A stretch of DNA of 43,740 nt from a virus. Within the stretch, counting starts at the first letter, position 1; each line of letters begins with the position of its first letter. Location: positions 1 to 43,740 of IMG/VR virus record IMGVR_UViG_3300021373_001571. The stretch is one strand, 5' to 3'. Made by a program: the position numbers and the translations under genes. This document shows positions 2,552 through 5,588 of this stretch, in pieces. The notes beneath the pieces were generated by a model, which saw nothing but the letters and a program-made list of their open reading frames with translations, did not search any database and was not told where the DNA came from.

Positions 2552-3664
2552 ATGAACATTGATAAAAAATTAAACGAAATGGAACCCAAAGACACCCCAT
2601 TATTAGTATTGGGTTATGTGATATTGGGTATGTTTTTATTATTACCTTTGACAGCACAGGCAACAGACAACGAGGTCAACCTTGTCCAGCAAGGAGATAA
2701 TTTAACTGTAGATATATTACAGGCAGGTTACGGTAATACAATTAGGAATTTAAACTCAACAACAACTCCTGCTGTATTAAATGGTGCCACAATGAATGTT
2801 AGCCTTCAACAAAGAGGTATCTATAATGATATAGGCATTTGGACATCAGGTAGCAATCAAGTTTTAGATACCTACATAGAAGGTGATTACAACGAAGTAT
2901 TTTTAGACAATCACGGTGACTATGGCCAACTAAAAGCAGACATAATTGGCGACAACAACTATGCTTGGTTAGAGCAAGGTACTACTAACAGCAATCAATA
3001 CAATCAATTACAACTTTATCAAGCAGGTGATAATCACGATGCTTACATAGAAGCATTAAGCGGAAATAGTAATAGTATTGATGTTTGGATGGGCAATGGA
3101 CAAGACGATAATTATGTGTATGTTTTAACCGGCAGTGGCAGTGACAGTAACAACATCAGAGTGTGGCAAGGCAAACACGATGACGGCACAACTGACACAG
3201 ACGAAACAGGTGGTCACGAAGCATACTGGATTGTTAGTGGCGACAGCAACAACTTAGCCAGTTATCAAACAGATGTAAACAGAGGTGGAGGCGGTGGCGA
3301 CTATCACCACTTAGCAAATTATATTGATGGTAACTACAATGCTGTAGAGCATATACAAAAGGGCAAAGCAGGACACGACGGCTTTGTAGACATAACAGGT
3401 GATAGCAATACTGTGGATTTATATCAACGTGGTAACGGTGGGCAAAAATGGGCAGACATAGTTTTAGACGGCAATGGTCATACAGTAGATGTTGAACAAC
3501 GAGGCAGTCAAAGTGCAACAGCGGCAATTGATTTAACATATGGCACAGGTGCATACACATTTGATTTATCACAGAATGTTACATCATCAGCGGCAACATA
3601 CAGTATTACAGGAATATGTAATACTTCGGGTGGATGTTCAGTCTCAGTTAATCAAAACAACTAA
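2552..3664 (+). CDS. Curlin-repeat secreted protein B
   Basis: A 370-residue exported protein. The N terminus is longer than usual (about 17 polar residues), then a hydrophobic core and TAQA as a likely cleavage site before TDNEV. The mature protein has about eleven curlin-like repeats, for example LQAGYGNT, LQQRGIYND, IEGDYNEV, IIGDNNYAW, YQAGDNHD, SGDSNNL, IDGNYNAV, ITGDSNTV and LDGNGHTV. Its first repeat is nearly the same as that of the protein at 599-1405, so the two are paralogues. A Gly-rich run (GGGGGD) interrupts the array near residue 250. It ends with a Cys pair and VSVNQNN. Probable main fibre subunit of a curli-like surface polymer; no CsgB, CsgE or CsgF homologue is recognised nearby. 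Confidence 0.8.
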   Translation: MNIDKKLNEMEPKDTPLLVLGYVILGMFLLLPLTAQATDNEVNLVQQGDNLTVDILQAGYGNTIRNLNSTTTPAVLNGATMNVSLQQRGIYNDIGIWTSGSNQVLDTYIEGDYNEVFLDNHGDYGQLKADIIGDNNYAWLEQGTTNSNQYNQLQLYQAGDNHDAYIEALSGNSNSIDVWMGNGQDDNYVYVLTGSGSDSNNIRVWQGKHDDGTTDTDETGGHEAYWIVSGDSNNLASYQTDVNRGGGGGDYHHLANYIDGNYNAVEHIQKGKAGHDGFVDITGDSNTVDLYQRGNGGQKWADIVLDGNGHTVDVEQRGSQSATAAIDLTYGTGAYTFDLSQNVTSSAATYSITGICNTSGGCSVSVNQNN

Positions 3665-3707: not shown

Positions 3708-3893
3708 ATGAAACATATGATCAAGTGGCTGAAAATAACAGCCGGAATAAACTTATATTTGTCAGTGGTAATGACACTGGTATTTTTGACATTGTTATTT
3801 GCAATAGTAACAGATTATAATTTAACTAACGCAGATGAGTATATCAGATTCATACTCAAACAAGAACTAGAAAATGCTGAGCAAAGTAACTAG
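3708..3893 (+). CDS. Small membrane protein 1
   Basis: A 61-residue protein with one clear membrane segment (about residues 12-35, LYLSVVMTLVFLTLLFAIV), a short basic N terminus and a charged C terminus. It is first in a run of three overlapping small membrane-protein genes behind a consensus sigma70 promoter, which suggests early expression by the host polymerase. No family is recognised. Early small membrane proteins of phages often act on the host envelope or on superinfecting phage; that role is only a guess here. Confidence 0.6.
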   Translation: MKHMIKWLKITAGINLYLSVVMTLVFLTLLFAIVTDYNLTNADEYIRFILKQELENAEQSN

Positions 3894-4182
3894 CAGTTTA
3901 AAATGGTATGCTGGTGCAATAGCATACGGACATTTATTATTACTGATAGCATTATTTCCCATGTACTTTTTTGTTTTATTTTTATTAGTTGTGCCTTCGT
4001 TGTGGCTCTTCATAGCATATTATATGGTGTATAATTATGCACAACGTGAAGGCATAGACTGGCCTAATACACCTATCTATTTGTTTGAACCTAGTGAGTA
4101 CGACCCGCACATGAGACCTTTTATAATAGTGAACGATTTTGAACCAGACTACGTTTTTGCAGATTATGACCCACGTTACTAA
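3874..4182 (+). CDS. Small membrane protein 2
   Basis: A 102-residue protein whose start overlaps the preceding gene by 20 bp. Two hydrophobic segments (about residues 12-30 and 31-52) form a hairpin, followed by a polar C-terminal half rich in Tyr, Pro and Asp that ends DYDPRY. No family is recognised. The coupled arrangement with the genes on both sides suggests the three products work together in the inner membrane. Confidence 0.6.
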   Translation: MLSKVTSSLKWYAGAIAYGHLLLLIALFPMYFFVLFLLVVPSLWLFIAYYMVYNYAQREGIDWPNTPIYLFEPSEYDPHMRPFIIVNDFEPDYVFADYDPRY

Positions 4183-4480
4183 GTACACAAACAGTTTGAG
4201 AAACTATGTTATTGCTGTTGTAAGTGCCCACCTAGTAGCATTAGGTTGGTTATTCCCACACGTTCTAATGTTTATTGTTGTTCCTCCAGCAATTTTTTAT
4301 CTGTTATTTTTATATTGTGAAATTATGTACGAAATTGAAGTTGGCACTAGATTAAGATTGATAAAACAAATCAGTGAAACAGATGATCCAATCACAAAAG
4401 AAGTGCTAACGTGGGAATTGATATTACACGAAGAGCATAGTATATTTGGAAATACTTCAAACGATAGGTTAGGATTTTAA
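4166..4480 (+). CDS. Small membrane protein 3
   Basis: A 104-residue protein. The ATG at 4166 is preferred to an upstream TTG at 4139; it overlaps the preceding gene by 17 bp. Two hydrophobic stretches lie at about residues 14-32 and 35-52, with an acidic, soluble C-terminal half containing TDDPITKEV. The layout (hydrophobic hairpin plus soluble tail) matches the preceding protein, so the two may be distant paralogues. No function is recognised. Confidence 0.6.
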   Translation: MTHVTKYTNSLRNYVIAVVSAHLVALGWLFPHVLMFIVVPPAIFYLLFLYCEIMYEIEVGTRLRLIKQISETDDPITKEVLTWELILHEEHSIFGNTSNDRLGF

Positions 4481-4547: not shown

Positions 4548-4871
4548 ATGAACAAATTTAAAAATGCGTTCTTAGGTATATTTTTTGTAATGTTCGCTCA
4601 AGGTTGTGCTACAGTTGGTACTGTAATCGATGGCGGACAAAAACTTGCCACAGACACACTTGATACTGTAACAGGTACAGCAAGTGGTATTGTTGGTTCA
4701 GTTGCAAATGACGTCGGTAGTGTAGTTCAAACTACAGCAGAAGTAGGTGTTGGATTAGTCCAAACTGCGGCTGATACTGGTGCTGGTTTAGTACAAGTTG
4801 TTGCTGATGAAGTCAACGATCAAACTGATGCTTTACAAGAAGAAGAACCTAAAGAAGAGCCAAAAAAGTAA
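4548..4871 (+). CDS. Phage lipoprotein (0-frame product)
   Basis: A 107-residue protein with a lipoprotein signal peptide: a basic N terminus, a hydrophobic core and a lipobox ending QGC at residue 20. The mature part is Val/Thr/Gly/Ala-rich with a repeating pattern (TVIDGG, TVTGTASGIVGSV, VGLVQTAADTGAGLVQ), probably a long amphipathic helix. The C terminus is acidic (EEEPKEEPKK). AAGGAG sits 6 nt before the ATG. The last two sense codons and stop read AAA AAG TAA and form a slippery heptamer, so this is probably the short form of two products (see 4548-5083). Membrane-anchored phage lipoproteins can block receptors or superinfection, but nothing here shows that directly. Confidence 0.8.
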   Translation: MNKFKNAFLGIFFVMFAQGCATVGTVIDGGQKLATDTLDTVTGTASGIVGSVANDVGSVVQTTAEVGVGLVQTAADTGAGLVQVVADEVNDQTDALQEEEPKEEPKK

Positions 4872-5083
4872 CTAGCTCATTCTTTAAACCTTTTAAGTTT
4901 TTAAAACAGAACGAAAAACAAAAAGGTATAGACTCACCCTCGCAAGAGAGTGAGCAGGTAACTGAAGAGGATATTAAAGAACTTATATTGCAAAATAAGG
5001 TTCTAAAAGAGTTATTGAAAGATAAACTTTTAGAAGATGCAATTAAAGAATATTGCTCCAAGGTACCTGAAGACTGTGAGTAG
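4548..5083 (+). CDS. Lipoprotein, -1 frameshift long form
   Basis: If ribosomes slip back one base at 4862-4868, translation passes the TAA at 4869-4871 and continues in an open frame of 71 sense codons to TAG at 5081-5083, giving a 178-residue product. The added part starts VTSSFFKPFKF, has an acidic and Gln-rich linker, then a Leu/Lys/Glu heptad-like stretch (about 36-60 of the extension) likely to be a coiled coil, and ends EYCSKVPEDCE. This frame has no ATG before its stop, so it has no obvious start of its own. A 72-codon frame free of stops in AT-rich DNA, plus the Cys motif shared with the next protein, argues that it is translated. A sequencing indel is the main alternative. Confidence 0.6.
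4862..4868 (+). promoter_or_regulatory. Slippery heptamer A AAA AAG
   Basis: The phase is exactly that of a -1 site: CCA AAA AAG TAA in the zero frame, so A AAA AAG can re-pair one base back. It is the same heptamer as in E. coli dnaX. The stop codon directly after it would increase the time spent on the slip site. Confidence 0.65.
4933..4954 (+). other. RNA hairpin with GNRA loop
   Basis: CTCAC-C-CTC-GCAA-GAG-A-GTGAG: an 8-bp stem with one C-A mismatch, closed by a GCAA tetraloop. It lies inside the frameshift extension, about 65 nt after the slip site. That is farther than normal for a frameshift stimulator, so its role is open. Confidence 0.5.
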
Positions 5084-5588
5084 ATTACTTATAATCTTAA
5101 CAATAACATTTCCTCTGTTTTTAACAGCAGAGGAAATTGTTATTAGTCCAGCATACTTACCTGAAGGTAGTGTATTAGATCTTACCTATAATCCCCCACT
5201 AGATCCTTATTACTGCGATAATAATCCTGAACTTTGTAAAAAGATAGAAACTAGTGACATTCCAATATTTGATATGACACCACGTGCCACTAATGGACAA
5301 TGGTTAGCATTTTGGACATTTCAATTATTAGATGTATACTCAACATCACGAGCATTAAAGTATGATTGTGTAAAAGAAGTGAATCCACTCTTTACAGAAA
5401 ATCCTAGTGATGCTAGACTAGTACTAACAAAAAGTTTTTTGTTGCTACCAGGCTTACTGTATAATGATTATTGGACAGAAGTAACACCTAAGGAATTAGA
5501 CGATACTAATATGTTATATGCGGCAGTTGTTGGAAATAACTTCAGATTGTTACACAAAGCCAAGCAGGAATGCAATAAAATACGATAA
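5037..5588 (+). CDS. Secreted DUF5658-like protein
   Basis: A 183-residue protein from the ATG at 5037. A GTG at 5076 would give 170 residues, overlapping the frameshift-extension stop by 8 bp, an overlap length also used elsewhere in this genome. Either start leads into a signal peptide (SRLLIILTITFPLFLTA). The mature N terminus has YYCDNNPELCK. The C-terminal half has a pattern like DUF5658 membrane proteins: FQLLDVYSTSRALKY, then EVNPLF, then a hydrophobic LTKSFLLLPGLLY. It lies between the lipoprotein and the adenylate cyclase. The DUF link is a by-eye resemblance, and the function is unknown. Confidence 0.65.
   Translation: MQLKNIAPRYLKTVSRLLIILTITFPLFLTAEEIVISPAYLPEGSVLDLTYNPPLDPYYCDNNPELCKKIETSDIPIFDMTPRATNGQWLAFWTFQLLDVYSTSRALKYDCVKEVNPLFTENPSDARLVLTKSFLLLPGLLYNDYWTEVTPKELDDTNMLYAAVVGNNFRLLHKAKQECNKIR

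Follow-up and report, generated by a model that had tools for sequence, protein, structure and literature searches.

Probable programmed −1 ribosomal frameshifting in a predicted lipoprotein gene family of marine phages

The E. coli dnaX gene, the IS911/IS3-type transposons and the phage tail assembly chaperone genes are the frameshifted systems closest to the gene described here. Work on such signals has shown that few sites in E. coli are as prone to shifting as A_AAA_AAG (PMC5009743), and their standard reading is tandem slippage aided by a stem (PMC5009743, PMC4066793). Stimulators generally begin 5–8 nt downstream of the slippery site (PMC4066793), while in dnaX the shift is also helped by a Shine-Dalgarno-like element (PMC3711429). 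The stimulator of IS911 is cited in PMC4066793 as a three-way junction. Among the frameshifts annotated by SEA-PHAGES, 2397 of 2476 fall in chaperones (PMC10885494). A lipoprotein gene would stand apart from the annotated phage frameshifts, nearly all of which are in tail assembly chaperone genes, as a widespread second family in marine phages.

The window analyzed here is the whole 43,740-base stretch of an IMG/VR virus record. Its structural genes are T4-like, with a tail sheath match, and its terminase matches many T4-like phages at identities under 60%. The lipoprotein gene is one member of a curli (type VIII secretion) cluster of the phage, which runs in the order CsgG (partial), curlin repeat, FecR, curlin repeat, small membrane proteins, lipoprotein, secreted protein and CHASE2-cyclase. 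By its cyclase, the nearest annotated phages are Methylophilales phage Melnitz and Pelagibacter phage HTVC008M. The features of the locus are collected in Table 1.

Table 1. Features at and around the lipoprotein gene, in window coordinates.
Feature	Position	Strand	Remarks
Small two-TM protein, H..(5-8)..FP motif, upstream neighbour	4160..4480	+	No Pfam/PHROG match
Lipoprotein gene, 0 frame, short product of 107 aa	4548..4871	+	Cys20 is the predicted lipidation site
Slippery heptamer A_AAA_AAG	4862..4868	+	Placed for a −1 slip, in exact X_XXY_YYZ phase
−1 frame tail, 71 codons (4868–5080) plus TAG (5081–5083)	4868..5083	+	Helix, then CX6C motif YCSKVPEDCE
0-frame stop TAA, immediately 3′ of the heptamer	4869..4871	+	In relatives, immediately 3′ or one codon on
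Spacer from heptamer to stem, 6 nt	4869..4874	+	Mostly 6 nt in relatives, 5–8 nt in most
Basal stem, 5′ arm GCTCATTCTTT	4875..4885	+	Pairs with 4945–4955; p = 0.005 against shuffles
Inner hairpin within the basal stem	4888..4927	+	Helices 4888–4894/4921–4927 and 4897–4902/4914–4919; minimum free energy fold
Basal stem, 3′ arm AGAGAGTGAGC	4945..4955	+	Competed for by a local hairpin using the same bases
Downstream gene encoding a probable secreted protein (170 aa if started at GTG)	5076..5588	+	Motif YCDNNPELC, related to the tail motif
Junction peptide spanning the predicted fusion: ...EEPKKVTSSFFK...			

The lipoprotein gene ends CCA (4860–4862) AAA AAG (4866–4868) TAA (4869–4871). The original prediction had placed a slippery heptamer there, in phase for a −1 slip and with the stop right behind it, and this held base for base, its coordinates proving correct. 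Reading from the nucleotide sequence, it is very probable that this one phage gene yields two isoforms by programmed −1 ribosomal frameshifting. Ribosomes would for the most part end at the stop after codon 107 and release a short lipoprotein anchored by Cys20. Others would pause at the heptamer, held by an RNA stem starting 6 nt downstream, with the immediate stop possibly adding to the delay; two lysine tRNAs would then slip in tandem from A_AAA_AAG to AAA_AAA, and 71 further codons would be read. We infer that such slippage occurs, with an efficiency that would leave the short product in the majority. The long form would carry the same anchor followed by a helix and a CX6C element, the latter perhaps closed as a disulfide loop if the protein is exported. 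The forecast of a short anchor and a longer, tail-bearing lipoprotein from one gene is thus supported by a conserved signal, by open −1 frames and by protein-level selection on the tail. Absent from that forecast were the downstream hairpin, the G_GGA_AAG variant of the heptamer and the breadth of the family beyond the curli cluster.

Much of the evidence comes from relatives found in five IMG/VR scans (loci L002–L060 and L063–L261), from which 104 distinct lipoprotein 3′ junctions were surveyed, the window's own included. An in-phase heptamer occurs in 78 of them, as A_AAA_AAG in 74 and as G_GGA_AAG in four (L120, L137, L185 and L187); A_AAA_AAG lies directly before the stop in 47 genes and one codon before it in 27. 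The heptamer and both frames have been conserved in many assemblies that are independent of one another. In each of the 78 heptamer junctions the −1 frame stays open, and in 77 it carries the CX6C motif, with L137 as the one junction whose tail differs, whereas all 22 tail-less relatives are without either heptamer or Cys tail. This association of heptamer and tail gives a Fisher p of about 1.7e-17, a descriptive value only, as it ignores shared ancestry. Homopolymer runs are error-prone, and a base missing or extra in the assembly could have split one ordinary gene in two, but this explanation is extremely improbable: the same phase recurs in 78 distinct junctions that come from many metagenomes, have diverged in their flanks and use two different heptamers, and no indel joining the two frames was found among the 104 junctions.

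The heptamer itself seems to be held fixed at the codon level. Its two lysine codons are AAA-AAG in all 74 A_AAA_AAG genes, while the other lysine codons of the same genes (n = 267) are AAA in 235 cases and AAG in 32. A Shine-Dalgarno-like element is missing from most of the family: no GGAG, AGGA or GAGG occurs in the 18 nt upstream of the window heptamer, and such an element is present at 19 of the 78 heptamer junctions. The A6 run, which is A7 in some relatives (L057 and L130), might instead allow transcriptional slippage, whereby the polymerase would join the frames and produce mixed mRNAs. Six A, however, is short for polymerase slippage, G_GGA_AAG keeps the phase without a long homopolymer, and slippage of this kind has no need of a ribosome-spaced stem or of the exact X_XXY_YYZ phase. 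It is accordingly a very improbable source of the long form, and slippage by the ribosome is the reading preferred here.

Downstream of the heptamer, stems starting 4–9 nt past it were searched for and compared with dinucleotide shuffles, and a stem at p ≤ 0.05 was found in 40 of 60 distinct junctions. In the window, positions 4875–4956 fold at −19.5 kcal/mol (z −3.64) into a basal stem enclosing an inner hairpin, and a comparable inner hairpin is predicted for most long-stem relatives. The fold with the basal stem (−17.8 kcal/mol) competes with an optimum based on a local hairpin (−19.3 kcal/mol). The stem sequences differ by clade (GCTCATTCTTT/AGAGAGTGAGC, AGCCTTTTCT/GGAAAAGGCT, CCTTCTTA/TAAGAAGG, AGATCACTCTT/GAGGGTGATCT and GCCATTC/GAATGGC, with CTTCATC/GATGAAG in L120), and Rfam holds no match. 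Among long-stem loci (n = 21), only 2 of 231 cells fail to pair, and two positions are altered on both sides; among short-stem loci (n = 10), 98.2% of cells pair, with a covariation score of 0.293 against 0.156 in shuffles. The predicted pairing is kept while the sequence changes, with compensatory changes in two stem types. A clade found beside DNA-polymerase and SNase genes (L130, at 3252–3350, and relatives among L217–L261) has the in-phase A_AAA_AAG and a short Cys tail, yet no convincing hairpin emerged there from the stem search.

The tail is under protein-level purifying selection in its own frame only. Its dN/dS is 0.16–0.29 in all four groups tested, near the lipoprotein's own value in three of them, and the same DNA read in other frames gives 0.73–3.9. 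As had been proposed, the window's −1 frame runs for 71 codons with neither a stop nor an ATG, and the only ATG, GTG or TTG codons in it are TTGs at tail codons 41 and 50 (counted from one). The Cys motif at its end also recurs, as proposed, in the next protein (YCSKVPEDCE in the tail, YCDNNPELCK in the neighbour). The likely GTG start of that neighbour (5076–5078) overlaps the end of the −1 frame, and a short overlap of this kind is seen again in relatives. The suggestion of a coiled-coil-like tail fared less well: the structure model has a single helix over tail residues 35–67, at moderate confidence (pLDDT 69), which lends it weak support. A weak match of the tail to NAP (E 0.002, below the cut-off) was put down to composition.

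The tail could conceivably be a separate gene instead, translated unfused by re-initiation at a non-canonical codon beyond the TAA. In fact, one relative, L119 (307–450), lacks the heptamer and has a stop-start overlap, TAATG, that supplies the tail's own ATG; in this locus the gene pair may work by re-initiation. Three others, L007 (180–690), L014 (2570–3070) and L098 (85–560), carry a +1-frame tail, AAG AAG in place of the heptamer, a stem at the same place, a tail dN/dS of 0.17 and ATG codons available upstream in the +1 frame, and could be explained by a −2 slip, by +1 recoding or by an internal ATG. Given the +1 tails of these three and the overlap in L119, fusion is not indispensable everywhere. 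For the family at large, however, a separate gene is a most unlikely account, marginally more so than polymerase slippage. No conserved start codon is present, as 27 loci are free of ATG, GTG and TTG in the −1 frame ahead of the heptamer, and two of the relatives (L019 and L023) have none across the whole tail. Moreover, re-initiation needs neither heptamer, frozen lysine codons nor hairpin, and an unfused product would be without a signal peptide. Both the separate-gene and the assembly-error readings were rejected on the evidence from relatives.

The product shared by both isoforms is predicted from its N-terminus to be exported and lipidated, with a signal peptide suggested by inspection. 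Cys20, A21, V23 and G24 are invariant across 20 relatives, the Cys is also invariant in alignment A3, and the residue after it is A or S. The lipobox is degenerate and non-canonical in the window (FAQGC) and reads LPSC in relatives. The structure model of the lipoprotein is of low confidence (pLDDT 46), too low for it to be of use.

The genomic settings of the family are varied. The curli/cyclase context of the window is found again around L183, L201 and L108, while other relatives lie between DNA polymerase and SNase/RecA-like genes (L215, L244 and L249) or adjoin a major capsid gene (L194). Two more, the tail-less L136 (2983–4353) and the odd-tailed L137 (850–1974), lie no more than about 1.1 kb from endolysin genes (an M15 peptidase and a phage lysozyme). 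Among the frameshift loci that could be tested, 42 of 68 have a small two-TM protein with the H..FP motif encoded upstream; among tail-less loci the count is 0 of 20. In the window, two adjacent small two-TM proteins (3874–4182 and 4160–4480) are alike in design, and relatives of the second sit before frameshifted lipoproteins in unrelated genome contexts.

The varied contexts and the two-TM neighbour argue for a device of the cell envelope and against a part specific to curli. We infer that the tail would serve for docking, with frameshifting fixing its dose. Of the functional readings the likeliest, put forward tentatively and with less than even confidence, is that the two isoforms belong to an envelope complex in which their fixed ratio sets the number of anchors bearing a docking tail; the partners would be the two-TM protein and, in the window's clade, also the secreted YC..NP..C protein. 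A broader proposal is more doubtful still. It holds that this is an undescribed ocean-phage envelope family, in which a frameshift-fixed ratio of lipoprotein isoforms together with the two-TM protein might form a device spanning the envelope, of a lysis-like, exclusion-like or curli-related kind, and that the sub-lineage of L007, L014 and L098 switched to −2 or +1 recoding for the same tail.

Recoding of this kind is an established mechanism. What seems to be new, as far as the searched databases and open-access papers go, is the gene family and the occurrence of such a signal in a gene for a predicted lipoprotein. Neither the lipoprotein nor the fusion had a match in INPHARED phage records (DNA and protein searches), and a lipoprotein profile found no relative in bacterial genomes. 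Pfam and PHROGs returned no family for the lipoprotein or the two-TM protein. The secreted protein likewise had no Pfam or PHROG family and no match in phage records. Pfam gave no curli match (CsgA/B/E/F/G) for lipoprotein or tail, while cluster neighbours do match CsgG, curlin repeat and FecR. Literature searches on frameshifting with phage, lipoprotein, curli or spanin did not turn up the gene in open-access papers, and papers on phage curli clusters mention neither lipoprotein nor frameshift. A search for a SAR11 locus through the phage acyl carrier protein, for the host tRNA-Lys, yielded none. For studies of recoding, the family offers natural replicates of each part of the signal, with two heptamers, several unrelated stems, tail-less controls and lineages with other solutions. 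It also supplies pelagiphage-type genomes with a protein domain that had no annotation, and it opens a testable route to the question of how phage curli clusters affect the cell envelope.

Compared with known systems, the nearest gene cluster is the pelagiphage curli cluster of HTVC008M and Melnitz (PMC9599517), which shares with the window the order CsgG, curlin, FecR, curlin and cyclase. Unlike the window, it has no lipoprotein between second curlin and cyclase, because the cyclase there comes directly after the second curlin-position gene; a profile search, run without a positive control, found no match to the family in either genome.

Another comparison is with the o-spanins (Rz1-like), which are likewise small phage lipoproteins encoded beside a small inner-membrane protein, and L136 and L137 extend this likeness by their nearness to endolysin genes. 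The i-spanin partner of a two-component spanin, however, has a single N-terminal TM plus a coiled coil in the periplasm, whereas a two-TM hairpin is found here. No lysis gene was identified beside the lipoprotein in the window, and most loci lie outside lysis cassettes. A spanin-like or exclusion-like role is no more than a possibility.

As regards the signal, dnaX (tau/gamma) has the same A_AAA_AAG heptamer, a downstream stem and two proteins with a common N-terminus, but its frameshift yields the shorter product where that of the lipoprotein gene would yield the longer, and the proteins are unrelated. IS911/IS3-type transposons share A_AAA_AAG and a long basal stem enclosing an inner structure, and fuse transposase OrfA to OrfB where a membrane lipoprotein would here gain a tail. 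Finally, the G/GT chaperone of lambda and other phages is, like this one, a phage gene with a C-terminal extension in a fraction of its products, and the lambda heptamer, G_GGA_AAG, is that of L120, L185, L187 and L137. The chaperone is a cytoplasmic protein encoded between tail tube and tape measure, whereas the gene described here lies in a curli cluster and encodes a lipoprotein predicted to be exported.
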